From assembly GCA_947570175.1 (NCBI GenBank), contig CANOTJ010000003.1, positions 1-64,000 on the forward strand: a stretch of DNA of 64,000 nucleotides, in the 5' to 3' direction. Under the pieces are notes generated by a model. It had not been told where the DNA came from. It worked only from the letters and a program-made list of their open reading frames with translations, and made no database searches. Below, piece after piece: positions 9,495 to 23,868 of this stretch. Origin of the DNA: an uncultured Mycoplasmatota bacterium. GTDB taxonomy: Bacteria > Bacillota_I > Bacilli_A > RF39 > UBA660. The translations under genes and the position numbers were made by a program. The stretch's first letter is position 1. Each line of letters starts with the position of its first letter.

Positions 9495-10292
9495 TTGGAA
9501 TGGTTTGAAAGCTTAAATGTAATTGTTCAAACATTAATAGCTACTATATTTACTTGGTGGGTTACCGCCTTAGGTGCCCTTGTCGTTTGTTTTTTTAAAG
9601 AGGTAAACAAAAAAGTCTTAGGTACAATTTTAGGATTTAGTGCAGGAATCATGATTGCAGCTTCTTTTTGGTCATTGCTTGCTCCATCACTAGATTTATC
9701 AAAAGAACTAGGTTATATTGTATGGTTATTACCAGCTATAGGATTTATTTTAGGAGGACTATTTGTTTTATTATCAGATCGCTTTTTGGATAAAACATTA
9801 AGTTCCAAAAAACATTCAAAAAAGAAGAACTCACTCAAGAGAAGTATTTTATTAACATCAGCTATTGTCATTCATAATATTCCGGAAGGAATGGCCATTG
9901 GAGTTGCTTTTGGCGGAATTGCTAACGGAGTAGAAGGAATGACTGTAATTGGAGCAACTATGTTAGCAATAGGAATTGGAATCCAAAACTTTCCAGAAGG
10001 GGCAGCAGTATCTTTACCACTGAGAAGAGAAGGATGTTCAAGATTTAAGAGTTTTATGATCGGTCAGGCCTCTGCAATCGTAGAACCAATTTCAGCAATT
10101 ATTGGAGTAATTTTAGTTATGTATATTCGAAGTGTCTTACCACTTTTACTTTCCTTTGCAGCGGGAGCCATGATTGTCGTAGTAGCAAGAGAACTTCTTC
10201 CAGAATCCATTAAAGAAAACAAAAATCTATCTACTTTAGGAATGATTGTTGGTTTCGTTCTTATGATGGTCTTGGATGTAGCTTTAGGTTAA
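9495..10292 (+). CDS. ZIP-family divalent metal transporter
   Basis: A 265-residue membrane protein with about eight helices. The metal-binding motifs are HNIPEGMAIG (about 127-136) in helix IV and QNFPEGAAVS (about 158-167) in helix V, with GQASAIVEPISA following, as in bacterial ZupT-type zinc/iron importers. A His-rich/Lys-rich loop (about 98-115, SSKKHSKKKN) sits between helices III and IV. The start is TTG at 9495 with GAGGTGAA upstream; no in-frame ATG fits. Ends at a small hairpin (10292-10316). Confidence 0.9.
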   Translation: MEWFESLNVIVQTLIATIFTWWVTALGALVVCFFKEVNKKVLGTILGFSAGIMIAASFWSLLAPSLDLSKELGYIVWLLPAIGFILGGLFVLLSDRFLDKTLSSKKHSKKKNSLKRSILLTSAIVIHNIPEGMAIGVAFGGIANGVEGMTVIGATMLAIGIGIQNFPEGAAVSLPLRREGCSRFKSFMIGQASAIVEPISAIIGVILVMYIRSVLPLLLSFAAGAMIVVVARELLPESIKENKNLSTLGMIVGFVLMMVLDVALG

Positions 10293-18941: not shown

Positions 18942-19101
18942 AAATACAACAAATACCTTCTGATACATGGCGTGCAATAGTACCAAAATACACTCCAATA
19001 TTAAATATAATATCTGTGCATATTGCGGTAGCTATTAATAAAATAGGGACACATAAAATACAATATATGATTTTTTTATGTTCTTTAATTATAGAGAGCA
19101 T
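18940..19101 (-). CDS. Small membrane protein of the bacteriocin operon (possible immunity protein)
   Basis: A 53-residue ORF whose ATG lies inside the end of the upstream peptide gene (about 13-bp overlap), so the two are translationally coupled. It has a basic N-terminus (IIKEHKK), one long hydrophobic segment (about 11-30), then GVYFGTIARHVSEGICCI. It lacks a double-glycine leader. Position right after a bacteriocin peptide suggests an immunity protein or a third peptide; function is inferred only. Confidence 0.65.
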   Translation of the reverse strand: MLSIIKEHKKIIYCILCVPILLIATAICTDIIFNIGVYFGTIARHVSEGICCI

Positions 19102-19250
19102 ATTTTTCCATTTTGTAATCTTCTAATTGCTGTTCCAATGCTTCGTCCTAAATCTAATATAGAATTAATTCCTCTTACGACAGCACTAATCATAGAAGCA
19201 GAAATTGCTCCTCCAACAATATCCATTAATTCTCTATCTTCTAATCTCAT
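19089..19250 (-). CDS. Double-glycine leader bacteriocin-like peptide (peptide B)
   Basis: A 53-residue peptide. The leader MRLEDRELMDIVGG ends in a GG cleavage site after an (L/I)xxxELxxIxGG-type pattern. The 39-residue mature part (AISASMISAVVRGINSILD...) has small and hydrophobic residues, LGRSIGTAIRRL and a Cys near the end. Start ATG 19250 has AGGAG 6 bp upstream; the longer in-frame ORF from 19301 runs into phage DNA across attL and is not the start. The C39 ABC exporter at 54372-56462 is its likely processing transporter. It is now separated from that gene by 35 kb of prophage. Confidence 0.85.
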   Translation of the reverse strand: MRLEDRELMDIVGGAISASMISAVVRGINSILDLGRSIGTAIRRLQNGKICSL

Positions 19251-19258
19251 ATAAACTC

Positions 19259-19291
19259 CTATCTGCAAGCAAGTGGTCGAATATAACCGTA
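19259..19291 (-). pseudogene. 3' end of the bacteriocin gene split by the prophage (peptide A, C-terminal part)
   Basis: Read on the minus strand from the core at 19289-19296, codons Y-GYIRPLACR and a TAG stop (19259-19261) follow. The stop overlaps the RBS (TAGGAG) of peptide B. This short tail is in the same frame as the truncated peptide gene at 54151-54282. Joined at the core, the two give a 53-codon double-glycine bacteriocin precursor ending GYIRPLACR, an Arg-Pro-Leu-x-Cys end of a kind I recall from double-glycine bacteriocins. No start remains here in the lysogen. Confidence 0.8.
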
Positions 19292-19296
19292 TAAAC
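19289..19296. repeat. attL core (GTATAAAC)
   Basis: Identical 8-mer to 54151-54158. Bacterial DNA lies to the left (bacteriocin C-terminal codons) and phage DNA to the right (integrase end). Confidence 0.8.
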
Positions 19297-19312
19297 CACA
19301 ATCATAATACTT

Positions 19313-20893
19313 TTAAATTTTCATATATAAATCAAGGGTTAAATCGTTTTCTTTTCCAATTTTAGTTTTAGTATACATTACTTTTTCAATAATAGAGTGG
19401 AGTAGATCGTTTTTTTCTTTTACACTTAATTTAAAATATTCATTTACGCACCATTCTACTTTTGGAATAAGAGTTTCTAATTTGTTCATCTTTATTTGCT
19501 CATTTTCTTGTGATATTTCGTTTATTTGCTGTTCTAGGATATAAATACTATCATTTACTATTTTCGAGCGTTCTAGGTACGTTTTTTTATCATATACACC
19601 ATCTTCTAAAAGATCTCTCAATCTATTTAGTTTGTTTTTTTCTTTTTCTAATTCTACATTTAATATTTCTAGTTGATTAATAACAGTGTTTATAATGCTA
19701 TCCTTACTATTATTATAATCTATTATTATTTTTTTGTTTTCAATAACCCATTCTTTTAATAATTCTATTAATGCAATCTCTACATATTCTAAAACATGGG
19801 ATCTGTTATCACAATTATGAGTGCATTTTACAATTGGTTTTGTGTTATATGTTTTAATGCTTCCATCAGCCAATCTATATGTATTAGTTTTTGTATCGAA
19901 TCTAGCCATAACACGACCACATACACTACAACGTAAAATACCTGCTAAAGGATTTCGAAGCTCTGTATTGTTTTTAACATATTTTGTAGAGCAAACCTTC
20001 AATTTATCTTGAACCAATTTAAAATCATCTTCGCTTATAATAGCTTCATGTTTTCCTTTTTCAATCATATAAGTTCCATCATCTTGTCTTACAATTTTGT
20101 GTAATATTTTGCCATCTTCAATTACTGTTATTGTTTTTCGTTGCTGCCATTTTACATATCCAGCATATGTTACATTATGGAGCATTTCTCGAATACCGTT
20201 TTTTTTCCATTTATAACCTCTTGGAGATTTGATTCCGCTTTTATTTAAGCTTTCTGCTATGACACATGTACCATCACCATTTAGGCACATTTTAAAAATC
20301 ATTTTTACAATTTTTGCTTGTTCATCTATAATTTTCAACGAGTAACCTTTTTGCCCTTTTAATTTATATCTTTCATATCCAAAAGGAGCAATTCCGCCTA
20401 TAAAACAGCCACTACGAACACTATCTTTTCGACCTTCCGTAAGTCTTTTTTTGATATTATTATATTCTTTTCGAGAATAAGACAATTTATCTATTAAATA
20501 TTCTTCATCAGCAGGATTGTTCAAATCATATTCTTTTTCGGGAGTTAATATAAGAGTATTAGTATACTTAAATGTTTTAATTATTTTGTCTTGATCTCCT
20601 AAATCTCCACGACATAACCTTTGAACATCTATAACCCAAACACCTTTTACATCTATACCTTCAATTCTTTTCAACAATAATTGAATTTGAGGTCTTTCGT
20701 TAATACTGTCACCACTGACAACTTCTTCATATATATTTTCTTCAAAAACTGGTTTGTTTGCACTCTCGCTAATTAGTTTCAGTCTTTCTTTATGTCTTTC
20801 TAATGTTTTGAATTCATTATTTGATTTTTCGTATTCTAAATCTTCTCTAGATTTTCTTAAATATTCTAAATATATTTCTGTAAATGTTTGCAC
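19313..20893 (-). CDS. Large serine recombinase (phage integrase)
   Basis: A 526-residue site-specific integrase with GTG start at 20893. The N-terminal resolvase domain has YLRKSRED with the catalytic serine (about 15), VVSGDSINERPQ (about 60-71) and DVQRLCRGD (about 89-97). The recombinase domain follows (GGIAPFGYER, MLHNVTYAGYVKW). A zinc ribbon is CSVCGRVM ... KCTHNCDN (about 329-370), and a long coiled coil (about 400-470) precedes the C-terminus. The stop lies 17 bp from the attL core. It catalyses attP x attB integration, and excision with a directionality factor I have not identified. Confidence 0.95.
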   Translation of the reverse strand: MQTFTEIYLEYLRKSREDLEYEKSNNEFKTLERHKERLKLISESANKPVFEENIYEEVVSGDSINERPQIQLLLKRIEGIDVKGVWVIDVQRLCRGDLGDQDKIIKTFKYTNTLILTPEKEYDLNNPADEEYLIDKLSYSRKEYNNIKKRLTEGRKDSVRSGCFIGGIAPFGYERYKLKGQKGYSLKIIDEQAKIVKMIFKMCLNGDGTCVIAESLNKSGIKSPRGYKWKKNGIREMLHNVTYAGYVKWQQRKTITVIEDGKILHKIVRQDDGTYMIEKGKHEAIISEDDFKLVQDKLKVCSTKYVKNNTELRNPLAGILRCSVCGRVMARFDTKTNTYRLADGSIKTYNTKPIVKCTHNCDNRSHVLEYVEIALIELLKEWVIENKKIIIDYNNSKDSIINTVINQLEILNVELEKEKNKLNRLRDLLEDGVYDKKTYLERSKIVNDSIYILEQQINEISQENEQIKMNKLETLIPKVEWCVNEYFKLSVKEKNDLLHSIIEKVMYTKTKIGKENDLTLDLYMKI

Positions 20894-20912: not shown

Positions 20913-20942
20913 TTGTATATTCTTATTTATTTATGATATAAT
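20913..20942 (+). promoter_or_regulatory. Promoter of candidate small RNA
   Basis: TTGTAT (20913-20918), 18-bp spacer, TATAAT (20937-20942) on the plus strand, divergent from the integrase. An 11-bp inverted repeat ATATAATTGTA (20936-20946 with 20959-20969) overlaps the -10 and start region and could be an operator. Confidence 0.6.
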
Positions 20943-20998
20943 TGTACTGAAAAACCAATACAATTATATTCTTTGCATAAAGTTTATTTTTGTTCTAA

Positions 20999-21019
20999 AT
21001 TTAGCGGTTTAGGGTTTTT
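20999..21019. repeat. 21-bp inverted repeat, copy 1
   Basis: Begins ATTTAGCGGTTTAGGG. It is the perfect reverse complement of 23461-23481, 2.4 kb away. Confidence 0.9.
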
Positions 21020-21024
21020 CATTT

Positions 21025-21057
21025 GACTTCTACCTGGCGGGGTAGAGGTCTTTTTTT
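21025..21057 (+). terminator. Rho-independent terminator of the small RNA
   Basis: GACTTCTACC / GGTAGAGGTC stem (10 bp, one G-U), loop TGGCGG, then seven T. On the plus strand only the small RNA lies upstream. Confidence 0.85.
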
Positions 21058-21149
21058 ATGTTAATAAATATTATAATTTTATTTTCTTGAAATACTTTTA
21101 AATATTTCCAATCTTTATTTTTAAATTTTACATATTTTACTTCGTACAT
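21030..21149 (-). CDS. Small phage ORF, unknown
   Basis: A 39-residue ORF with a strong RBS (GAGGTGGTAAG before ATG). The product is basic and aromatic, beginning MYEVKYVKFKNKDWKYLK. Its 3' end overlaps the terminator hairpin of the opposite-strand small RNA. It lies between the exonuclease-BRCT gene and the integrase on the same strand. Real translation is plausible but unproven; it could be a small directionality or regulatory protein. Confidence 0.45.
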   Translation of the reverse strand: MYEVKYVKFKNKDWKYLKVFQENKIIIFINIKKDLYPAR

Positions 21150-21262
21150 CTTACCACCTCAAACAGATGGTAACATATAATTGTTTGTTTGTGTTGATAA
21201 TATGTTTAAAATGATGATTTATATGTTTAAGATGAAAATAATTATATATATTAAAATTATTT

Positions 21263-22630
21263 TTATGAAATAGGGCAGCTTGCTATTTGATCATCTTTTA
21301 ATATTTTTATTAAATCATTTTCCGAGATAATTTCAATATTAATGCCTTTTTCCTGTAATTCTTGAGCTTTAGCTATTTTTCCGCCTATTTTTCCAAACTT
21401 CCATGCTTCACTTCCAAGTTCACCAACGAATAAATAATCTAATTTAGATGATACACCTTTTTTCTCAATTCCACCTAATTTTTCAAGTTTCGATTTGATT
21501 TCGGATTTGCTTCCATTTTTAAATTCTCCAGTTAGACAAAATGTTTTATTTAATAAATTAATAGAATTTTTTGACTCCAATATAGGATTTAATATTTCTT
21601 GAAAAGAAACATTAAGTTTATTTTTTTCCTCTTCTGTTAGTATTCCATCTTCTAATACACTATTAACAATTTCACAAACTTTGTCATATGGATATACTCC
21701 AACCAAATGATTATTAATATCTAACCATGTTTTTAAATTATTTATTTCATCTATAACGATTTCTCCATCACAACTTATTCCGCTTATTATCCCTTGCAAA
21801 ACTTGCAAGTTTAATGTTGTATCATTATACATTTTTGAATGACTAAAAGCAGTAACTAAATTCATTAATTCAATTCTTTCATATTTATCAATTATATTAT
21901 CTTCTAAAATTCTGTTAAGACTATTTATAATGTTATTAAATAAAGAATATTGTTTATATATTAAATTATTGTTAATCCAATTTCTTAATAAATCGATTTC
22001 TTTATCATTAATTATATTGTCATAATTAATCCCTTGAATAATTCCATATAGTTCATTTATATTTGTAGAAAGTTTTTCGTCAATTTTTTCATTAAATTCA
22101 TTTAGATATTGATATTTATGAATAAAATCATCATTGATAAAGAAATTTTCTGTTAAATATTCAAAAAGATTATATGTAGCTTTAGTATCTTCAAAGGCAT
22201 TATGTGCTTCATAATCGTAATTTAAATATTCTGAAATTGAAGTCAAATTATATGAATCCAATTTAAGATACTTTTGAGAAATTTCCAAAGTATCTATGTA
22301 TCTAAAATTTGGTATATCTATATCATATCTATTTAATGATTTTGAAATTACGCTTAAATCATAAGTTATATTATGACCAATAATAATGTTATCGTTTAAA
22401 ATATCTTTAATATTATCCCAATATTCCTTGAATGTTGGTTTGTCTAACACCATGCTTTCAATAATTCCGTTAATTTTTGAATTTCTTATATCAAAACGGT
22501 CTTCTGGATTTATTAGTGTATATTTTTTATCAATTATTTTTCCGTTCTTAATTACTAAAACAGAAATAGAACATATTGAGTTTCCTCTAGCATTTGGATT
22601 TTCTATATCCAATATTGCATAATTTTTCAT
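21263..22630 (-). CDS. DEDDh 3'-5' exonuclease with TerB-like repeats and BRCT domain
   Basis: A 455-residue protein. The N-terminal DnaQ/RNase T-like exonuclease has DIENP (about 7-11), IIGHNITYDLSV (about 102-113) and HNAFEDTKATY (about 157-167), so all four acidic residues and the His are present. The middle (about 195-350) carries two similar helical repeats (GIIQGINYD...IINSLNRILEDN and GIISGISCD...IVNSVLEDG), resembling TerB-like units. The C-terminus is a BRCT domain (KTFCLTGEFKNGSKSEIK...LGSEAWKFGKIGGKIAKA, about 365-445), as in DNA ligase. It may process DNA ends or be a lysogeny-expressed protein, since it lies on the repressor side. Confidence 0.88.
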   Translation of the reverse strand: MKNYAILDIENPNARGNSICSISVLVIKNGKIIDKKYTLINPEDRFDIRNSKINGIIESMVLDKPTFKEYWDNIKDILNDNIIIGHNITYDLSVISKSLNRYDIDIPNFRYIDTLEISQKYLKLDSYNLTSISEYLNYDYEAHNAFEDTKATYNLFEYLTENFFINDDFIHKYQYLNEFNEKIDEKLSTNINELYGIIQGINYDNIINDKEIDLLRNWINNNLIYKQYSLFNNIINSLNRILEDNIIDKYERIELMNLVTAFSHSKMYNDTTLNLQVLQGIISGISCDGEIVIDEINNLKTWLDINNHLVGVYPYDKVCEIVNSVLEDGILTEEEKNKLNVSFQEILNPILESKNSINLLNKTFCLTGEFKNGSKSEIKSKLEKLGGIEKKGVSSKLDYLFVGELGSEAWKFGKIGGKIAKAQELQEKGINIEIISENDLIKILKDDQIASCPIS

Positions 22631-22678
22631 GTATAATATCCTCCTATAAGACCTTCTGTACTAGCAAGGATTCTTTTA

Positions 22679-23038
22679 TTAATCTTTATTTTCGTTATTT
22701 TTTATTTTTTCTTCCATTAGAAATTGATTCATTTCTAAAATGTCTTTATCTGTTATTTTACCATCTTTAGATAGAGTTACTTTCATATCTCCAAATTCTA
22801 CTTCTTTAATTTCCTCGTTTGGATGTTCGATTCTTAAATCTATAGCAAGCATATCTGGAAGAGAAATATTAAGAGCTTTTGATACATCCTCAACATTATC
22901 AATACTAGGAATAATTTCTTGTGTTTCCCATCTTGCTATAGTTGTTTGATTAACTCCAACTATATTAGCTAACTTATTTTGCGATAATCCTTTTTTTTCT
23001 CTTATAAATTTTAAATTAGTATTAAAATAATTGCTCAT
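22679..23038 (-). CDS. XRE-family phage repressor (CI-like)
   Basis: A 119-residue protein. The N-terminal HTH_3 domain (about 7-60) has GLSQNKLANIVGVNQTTIARWE, with a C-terminal acidic tail (about 70-119) that could mediate dimerisation. It is transcribed away from a Cro-like gene across a shared operator region at 23041-23169, the classic lysogeny switch. Likely binds the TGC-N6-GCA sites. No peptidase domain for RecA-type self-cleavage is visible, so induction may use another route. Confidence 0.88.
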   Translation of the reverse strand: MSNYFNTNLKFIREKKGLSQNKLANIVGVNQTTIARWETQEIIPSIDNVEDVSKALNISLPDMLAIDLRIEHPNEEIKEVEFGDMKVTLSKDGKITDKDILEMNQFLMEEKIKNNENKD

Positions 23039-23096
23039 ACTTTCTCCTTTCCAACTTTATTATATAGCATTAAAAATCAAATTTCAATAAAAATTA

Positions 23097-23137
23097 TGCT
23101 TTTTTGCAGAAAAAGTATTGACATCTGCGAATAAGCA
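23097..23137. promoter_or_regulatory. Switch operators O1 and O2 (TGC-N6-GCA)
   Basis: O1 at 23097-23108 (TGCTTTTTTGCA) and O2 at 23126-23137 (TGCGAATAAGCA). Together they form a near-perfect 15-bp inverted repeat. O2 lies entirely between the -35 and -10 of the Cro-side promoter, so occupancy would block it. Confidence 0.75.
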
Positions 23138-23146
23138 TGATAACAT
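23118..23146 (+). promoter_or_regulatory. Early rightward promoter
   Basis: Consensus TTGACA (23118-23123), 17-bp spacer holding operator O2, TAACAT (23141-23146), then RBS AGGAGG before the Cro-like gene at 23170. Confidence 0.85.
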
Positions 23147-23169
23147 CTAAAATAGATAGGAGGTAAAAA

Positions 23170-23436
23170 ATGGAAATAAGAGCAAGAGAACTTATAGCAA
23201 ATAAGTTAAGAAGTATAAGAGCAGATCTAAAATATACAATTGAATATGTTGCAAATAAATCAAATGTAAGTAAAGATACAATATGTAGATATGAAAATAA
23301 TCAAGTATCTATGCAAATTGATATTTTAGAGAAACTTATACAATTCTATGGTTATAATTTTGTTATTTTTTTTAAAGAAATATATGCGAATAAGCAGAAA
23401 TTCAAAAAAGAAGATATAAGTAAAAATGAATTGTAA
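23170..23436 (+). CDS. Cro-like XRE-family regulator
   Basis: An 88-residue protein with an N-terminal helix-turn-helix (about 8-65: LRSIRADLKYTIEYVANKSNVSKDTICRYEN) and a short basic tail. Divergent from the repressor and first gene of the early rightward operon. A third operator-like site, TGCGAATAAGCA, lies inside its coding end at 23385-23396, which might allow roadblock or looping control. RBS AGGAGG. Confidence 0.85.
   Translation: MEIRARELIANKLRSIRADLKYTIEYVANKSNVSKDTICRYENNQVSMQIDILEKLIQFYGYNFVIFFKEIYANKQKFKKEDISKNEL
23385..23396. promoter_or_regulatory. Operator-like site O3 inside the Cro-like gene
   Basis: TGCGAATAAGCA is identical to O2 at all 12 positions, 259 bp downstream. 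Confidence 0.55.
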
Positions 23437-23460
23437 AAAGAAACAAACAATACAAAAACT

Positions 23461-23481
23461 AAAAACCCTAAACCGCTAAAT
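23461..23481. repeat. 21-bp inverted repeat, copy 2, in an mRNA leader
   Basis: Begins AAAAACCCTAAACCGC and is the perfect complement of the candidate small RNA at 20999-21019. It ends 3 bp before the AAAGGAA ribosome-binding site of the next gene. Confidence 0.9.
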
Positions 23482-23496
23482 GAAAGGAACGATAAT

Positions 23497-23709
23497 ATGT
23501 GCATAGTAAAAACGCAAAAAATAAATGGAATATTAGTAAATATTCATGATGACTATATTCCAAAAGAAAAAGAATTATATAAAAACAATTTAAAAAATGT
23601 TTATGACACTATAAACATGATATTCCAGGATAAAGAGACAAAAGATCTATTTTACACACCACAGGAATTAGATAAATTAAAACAACAAAACATATACGAA
23701 TTTCTATAG
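23497..23709 (+). CDS. Small early phage protein, unknown
   Basis: A 70-residue soluble protein (MCIVKTQKINGILVNIHDDYIP...) with no known domain. Its leader carries the 21-nt match to the candidate small RNA, so its translation may be controlled by antisense pairing. It lies between the Cro-like regulator and the origin region. Confidence 0.7.
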   Translation: MCIVKTQKINGILVNIHDDYIPKEKELYKNNLKNVYDTINMIFQDKETKDLFYTPQELDKLKQQNIYEFL

Positions 23710-23718
23710 GAGGATAAC

Positions 23719-23868
23719 ATGAAAGAAATATTTAAAAGTAAAGTAATATGGTTATTTATAATTTTTATTTTAAGTATCACTTATATGAATACTGGAATAC
23801 AAAAAAATGCCAGTGCTGACGACACTGACAAAAAAATAAATAATTATGAAATTAATTCACATCAATAA
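23719..23868 (+). CDS. Small exported or membrane peptide
   Basis: A 49-residue ORF with RBS AGGAGG 7 bp upstream. N-terminal Lys-rich segment, hydrophobic helix (about 9-25), then KNASADDTDKK, which looks like a signal-peptidase site (ASA) followed by a short acidic-basic tail. Function unknown; possibly a superinfection-exclusion peptide, by position only. Confidence 0.6.
   Translation: MKEIFKSKVIWLFIIFILSITYMNTGIQKNASADDTDKKINNYEINSHQ

Follow-up and report, generated by a model that had tools for sequence, protein, structure and literature searches.

A predicted phage small RNA complementary to the leader of a putative recombination directionality factor gene linked to a large serine integrase

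How the excision factor of temperate phages with a serine integrase is held off during synthesis of the integrase is, to our knowledge, poorly understood. This question is raised by a phage region in a stretch of 64,000 nucleotides, hereafter the window (positions 1 to 64,000, forward strand, of contig CANOTJ010000003.1, assembly GCA_947570175.1), from an uncultured Mycoplasmatota bacterium. A predicted trans-acting small RNA (sRNA) is encoded there beside the gene of a large serine integrase, and it is complementary to the mRNA leader of a small early gene, the target gene. The sRNA probably silences in trans the recombination directionality factor (RDF) of this integrase, favouring integration and stable lysogeny. 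Comparable RNAs seem to be present in prophages of one family of gut bacteria. It also seems fairly likely that a fast-diversifying family of such sRNAs, inherited with the integrase and with a pairing code of its own in each lineage, sets the direction of the serine integrases through silencing of the RDF, as matched integrase-sRNA-RDF triplets.

The complementarity itself is exact over 21 nt. The pairing segment of the sRNA (20999..21019, forward strand) is the reverse complement of 23461-23481, as the original prediction, made from the sequence of the window, had stated. The target site (23461..23481, forward strand) lies in the mRNA leader between a Cro-like gene and the target gene (23497..23709, forward strand, 70 aa), in a leader predicted to be unstructured, and is followed after 1 nt, and not after the 3 bp given originally, by the ribosome site AAAGGAA of the target gene (23483..23489, forward strand). 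Complementarity extends imperfectly beyond the 21 nt (26 nt at 92%), and the predicted duplex of -35.2 kcal/mol includes part of the ribosome site.

The claim that such a match is not expected by chance stood on base composition and position and did not stand on length. No inverted exact match within the window exceeds the 21-mer, which has no further copy at up to three mismatches and none in 100 shuffles. When the window was simulated 60 times with a first-order Markov model, the ten longest per-run maxima measured 20-24 nt (AT-rich and palindromic matches counted), and the length of the match is by itself not beyond chance in 64 kb of AT-rich DNA. Its G+C content and position make it unlikely by chance, because the leader reached a log-odds score of 37.8 against 21.5 for the next-best site (18 kb, both strands) and none of 500 shuffled leaders attained that score, the shuffle maximum being 24.5. 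A 14-base core of the match has no copy beyond these two anywhere in the host assembly, a 1.38-Mb draft.

The sRNA has been placed at 20949..21057 on the forward strand (about 109 nt, with the start deduced from the -10 element), an interval with no plausible gene and with its own predicted promoter and terminator. The promoter, recognized by reading of the sequence (20913..20942, forward strand), consists of TTGTAT (20913-20918), a spacer of 18 nt and TATAAT (20937-20942) with an extended -10 (TGATATAAT). The intrinsic terminator (21025..21057, forward strand) is formed by a stem of 11 pairs (21025-21050) followed by T7, and it also appears in the predicted fold. The consensus promoter and the terminator around about 110 nt free of open reading frames (ORFs) had been proposed in the original prediction and were recovered here, together with the extended -10. 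The predicted fold (z -4.62) shows a strong terminator and a hairpin loop that holds part of the pairing core. The unit is divergent from the integrase gene (19313..20893, reverse strand, 526 aa, Pfam Recombinase and Resolvase, phrog_95 integrase). No Rfam model matched the window at the gathering score, and in six loci searched at E up to 1 the sole match was to a snoRNA model, below the cut-off and outside the sRNA unit. Homologues of the unit were found in 20 further loci, and the extended -10 (TGN followed by the -10 hexamer) is present in the 21 units examined (21/21). A palindrome with 11-bp arms spans the -10 and the transcription start in the window (20936..20969) and could be an operator; the related locus L034 has one too. 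In many loci a palindrome overlaps the extended -10 of the sRNA or lies 3' of it (for example ATATAATTGTA..TACAATTATAT); it may act as an operator or, for certain loci, form a hairpin at the 5' end of the RNA.

Related loci were collected through both proteins. The search with the target protein in 291 genomes of the same family gave two close relatives, L034 (71% identity) and L035 (61%), whose integrases are 77% and 71% identical to that of the window. The integrase was searched in 386 genomes (25 matches) and the target profile in 385. The 28 loci with integrase and target gene, window included, constitute the comparison set; they amount to about 26 distinct ones, since L111 and L112 have identical targets and L084 and L085 are near-identical. 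Six of the 34 target loci fall outside the 28, namely L037, L039, L043 and L108, in which the integrase was not found, and L113 and L116 (short contig). L078 was dropped from the set at E 1e-3 and tested later. Outside the family no match was obtained among genomes of the class, as the five matching genomes out of 395 all came from the family itself; viral_contigs gave no exact copy, one weak relative of the target and no relative of the Cro-like protein or of the integrase.

An unguided scan, in which each leader was compared with its whole locus on both strands with log-odds weights for a 28% G+C genome, found the overall best complementary site to be on the forward strand, no more than 330 nt from the start of the integrase, in 16 of the 28 loci; in two more, a site in this interval came second. 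When leaders were shuffled, 20/28 loci had at most 3 of 500 shuffled leaders attaining the observed score; in two of these 20 (L036 and L038) the unit or the site was placed by hand, and in L036 the sRNA unit is shifted to 776 nt from the integrase. For 19 loci the predicted duplex energies lie between -20.5 and -35.2 kcal/mol. Pairing was likewise seen in L078, which is not one of the 28 (28.7 at +137, the top score on the forward strand, with a reverse-strand site at 32.4); in L114 and L078 it is established less securely than in the 20 loci.

The pairing is specific to each phage. About nine kinds of pairing core were distinguished by reading (TTAGCGG, TCGTGG, GATAGCTT and single kinds in L077, L078, L083, L086, L114 and L115). 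L034 and L035 have a promoter-terminator unit with the TTAGCGG core beside the integrase and its complement in both leaders, and the surroundings of the core diverge in matching ways, with a G-U pair in L034 and, in L035, two matching stretches, the first of 12 nt, separated by a bulge. In the 28 x 28 matrix, 14 of the 18 loci with a cognate score of at least 24 top their row, and the other four (L082, L110, L111 and L112) are outscored solely by cassettes from loci that share their core; row medians are 14-18 and the 18 clear cognate pairs score 24-38. A chance origin of the pairing, for which the raw length of the match alone was insufficient as an argument, was ruled out by the shuffles, the locus scans and this matrix. 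Among the seven loci with the TCGTGG core, two-sided change is seen in 6 of 16 columns, and pairing holds in 101 of 112 cells, whereas swapped partners reach 96 at most. Comparison of the loci shows the pairing to be kept by selection. The original proposal of a trans-acting sRNA directed by pairing at the leader of a phage early mRNA is strongly supported by the matching diversification of both partners in 20/28 loci, which is far stronger evidence than a single match.

A repeated sequence beside an integrase gene might also be a DNA element (an operator, an attachment or recombinase site, or an invertible segment) and not an RNA pair. In favour of this, the copies adjoin the integrase gene and the promoter overlaps with a palindrome, yet the sequence varies between phages while the match within each phage is kept, and the G-U pairs in L034, L073 and L045 preserve RNA complementarity and not DNA complementarity. 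We regard a DNA element as highly improbable, because G-U pairs and bulges are tolerated, the segment is framed by a promoter and a terminator, and the site keeps a constant relation to the translation start of one gene.

The position of the pairing site bears on the direction of the effect. It usually lies about 15-60 nt 5' of the start codon, and it covers the ribosome site or the start codon in L044, L082, L084-L086, L111 and L112. Pairing 5' of the ribosome site can be activating for some known sRNAs, so that the RNA could in principle activate the target gene instead of repressing it. This is very unlikely, since the leader in the window is predicted to be unstructured and offers no block to open, and in L044, L082, L084, L085, L086 and L111 the duplex would cover the ribosome site or the start codon. 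The target leaders of L036, L038, L083, L110 and L081 (also L077, L115 and L116) share TGTCGAATA or the related TCGACA/CCGACA between the pairing site and the ribosome site, perhaps a second regulatory element.

Which function is controlled was approached through the genes that accompany the RNA. Among the integrase loci with flanking sequence, the target gene was present in 23/23 (seven of these belonging to the seed profile and L078 being detected only at E 2e-4), with G175 left out at a contig edge and a flank of just 379 nt in L076. Integrase and target (by profile) also co-occur in 27/27 other loci of the final set, part of which was collected via the target itself, and the 23/23 of the integrase search is the cleaner figure. 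Other neighbours in the 27 loci were less constant: CI in 12, Cro in 10 (both at E 0.01, with helix-turn-helix proteins matching broadly), SpoVG in 9, and exonuclease, membrane-peptide and replication genes in at most one. This last count bears on a type I toxin-antitoxin system, in which the toxin would be the small membrane peptide encoded at 23719-23868. A small RNA and a hydrophobic peptide gene do share one operon, but the peptide is found in 1/27 other loci, compared with 27/27 (by profile) for the gene that would be directly regulated, and we give this explanation hardly any credence.

In the two closest relatives the repressor is non-homologous to that of the window (no match at E 0.01), whereas both integrase and target remain similar; across 26 loci, integrase similarity and target similarity are correlated (Spearman 0.353, 0/5000 permutations). 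By these comparisons the target gene is inherited with the integrase and not with the repressor. The target is therefore likely to be the RDF (excisionase) of the serine integrase, being a small early protein that tracks the integrase and not the repressor. The sRNA could instead silence an antirepressor or switch protein and so protect repressor-based lysogeny, in the manner of P1 C4 or P22 sar. The target is an early gene adjoining a Cro-like gene, and the phage antisense RNAs already known hold down antirepressors or cII (PMC12197685). A protein tied to the repressor should, however, change with it, and the close relatives keep the target with a non-homologous repressor; we consider an antirepressor unlikely. 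The target matches no known family in Pfam, PHROG or NCBIfam, none of which names it an antirepressor. The original suggestion that the RNA could repress the early operon during lysogeny was not supported in that form; the site was found to lie after the Cro-like gene and before 23497. Excision control, rather than control of the whole early operon, is the likely purpose of the sRNA because the integrase and one small gene are what is conserved with it.

According to the mechanism proposed, a lysogen or a newly infecting phage would make the sRNA and the integrase from their divergent genes. The sRNA of about 110 nt would pair with the leader of the second early gene, through the 21 bp and a weaker part over the ribosome site in the window and over the start codon elsewhere, and pairing would block translation of the RDF or mark its mRNA for decay. 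The data support the pairing and the gene linkage among the steps of this scheme. With the sRNA present there would be no RDF, and the integrase would integrate with no excision. On induction, the block would be overcome by strong transcription of the early RDF mRNA or by shut-off of the sRNA promoter, the latter possibly through the palindrome at the -10. We infer the expression of the sRNA, the repressive direction of its effect, the identity of the RDF and the induction step.

Several observations weigh against the silencing of an RDF by a conserved sRNA. The pairing unit was not found in 7/28 loci with integrase and target (L040, L046, L047, L074, L079, L080 and L081); in L074, with an internal stop in the match to its integrase, neither unit nor site was seen. 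In L038 the site precedes an inserted gene, and the RNA would face a two-gene leader. The original prediction regarded a change in one site alone as telling against it: both sites mostly change together, L038 and the seven loci being departures. L114 alone is not significant (71 of 500 shuffles), and the loci with the GATAGCTT core have no two-sided changes (0/12 columns). The weights of the duplex scoring, used in their final log-odds form in the shuffle and cognate-matrix tests, were chosen after earlier schemes had done less well and were not fixed beforehand. RNAduplex tiles had given long AT-rich chains, and a first gapped scheme was swamped by the antisense of the leader itself and, after masking, placed the best match in the cassette in 10/28 loci; ungapped scoring already revealed the pairs. 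As regards the RDF, TP901-1 Xis did not match the target. SprB of SPbeta, a phage whose integrase is a relative of that of the window (28% identity), was the best of 162 ORFs by one profile, with a non-significant E of 0.07, and third of 112 by hhalign. The AlphaFold2 model of the target (a beta hairpin and two helices; predicted local distance difference test score, pLDDT, 79.6; predicted template modelling score, pTM, 0.38) gave nothing above background in a search of PDB folds, a result with which a known fold remains compatible. Lastly, the target homologues of L037, L039, L043 and L108 have no integrase within the flank retrieved.

Other candidates and relatives were noted in the course of these searches. 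L080 and L081 scored 21.6 (4 of 500 shuffles) and were discounted, since by reading of the letters the score comes from the complement of the integrase's own ribosome site, which lies there and to which the AGGAGG in the target leader would pair. In L037 (target at 9776) and L039 (2408), the element includes an exonuclease-BRCT gene like that at 21263-22630 of the window, and the gene beside these targets is one that we take to be a MobV-type relaxase. A homologue of the target (E 1e-7) was found outside the family in Thermoanaerobacterium phage THSA-485A (L127, 8843-9022, Tsac_2881), directly 3' of a helix-turn-helix gene and near an integrase, which makes Tsac_2881 a candidate RDF in a sequenced phage. 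No pairing unit could be tied to it or to the weaker candidates L120, L121 and L123 from distant phages.

The system proposed here has both likenesses to and differences from those already described. The sar and C4 RNAs are tied to the ant region, whereas the RNA of the window is encoded about 2.4 kb from its target, beside the integrase, and the target tracks the integrase and not the repressor. The lambda int/xis control (pI promoter and sib retroregulation) solves the same problem of making integrase without excisionase, with a separate promoter and mRNA processing and for a tyrosine integrase, in contrast to the sRNA and serine integrase considered here. P1/P7 C4 and P22 sar resemble the present case in that an RNA made by the phage base-pairs with one of its mRNAs and limits a protein that favours lysis, and the small lambda RNA OOP also lowers one early gene and affects the choice between lysis and lysogeny (PMC12197685). 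OOP is an antisense RNA of cII, whereas the partners are here separate loci that co-vary. DicF and Esr41 are prophage-encoded RNAs that base-pair in trans, as proposed here, DicF acting and Esr41 being proposed to act on host mRNAs (PMC12197685), whereas the host assembly offers no second target for the 14-base core.

TP901-1 is a phage with a serine integrase, and its record marks the excisionase as experimental and places it in the early operon after mor, a position that corresponds to that of the target gene. TP901-1 Xis, SPbeta SprB and Clostridioides difficile CD1234 are, as proposed for the target, small partner proteins of a large serine integrase. SprB and CD1234 are acidic, and RDFs generally share no significant sequence similarity (PMC5025042). 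CD1234 is controlled by sigma-E and SpoIIID (PMC5025042) and not by an sRNA as proposed here. In the open-access literature, as judged by title or the start of the abstract, no report was found of an sRNA controlling an RDF.

If the proposed mechanism is true, a conserved RNA switch would be the answer of this lineage to the question of how excision is kept off. It would also point to an unrecognised RDF family, the guarding RNA serving as a label for the target genes; this is of value since RDFs have little sequence in common and are difficult to detect. Sets in which integrase, RDF and RNA off-switch match one another would be of use as components for writing DNA reversibly, and the covarying pairs are a natural record of how antisense specificity changes in evolution.

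With regard to the surroundings in the window, the target gene comes after a pair formed by a CI-like repressor gene (22679..23038, reverse strand, Pfam HTH_3) and the gene of a Cro-like early regulator (23170..23436, forward strand, Pfam HTH_3). Two exact copies of TGCGAATAAGCA are present, one between the CI and Cro genes (23126-23137) and the other (23385-23396) in the 3'-terminal part of the Cro gene, some 100 nt ahead of the target gene; they are likely repressor operators, and the second perhaps acts on the target gene. A perfect direct repeat of 768 nt that includes a small gene (1033-1800 and 1825-2592) corresponds to a recent tandem duplication or to an assembly artefact. Small genes that by eye resemble double-glycine bacteriocin-type peptides abut the 3' end of the integrase gene in the window (19089-19301) and also in L034 and L035, and these phages may integrate into bacteriocin-type peptide genes.

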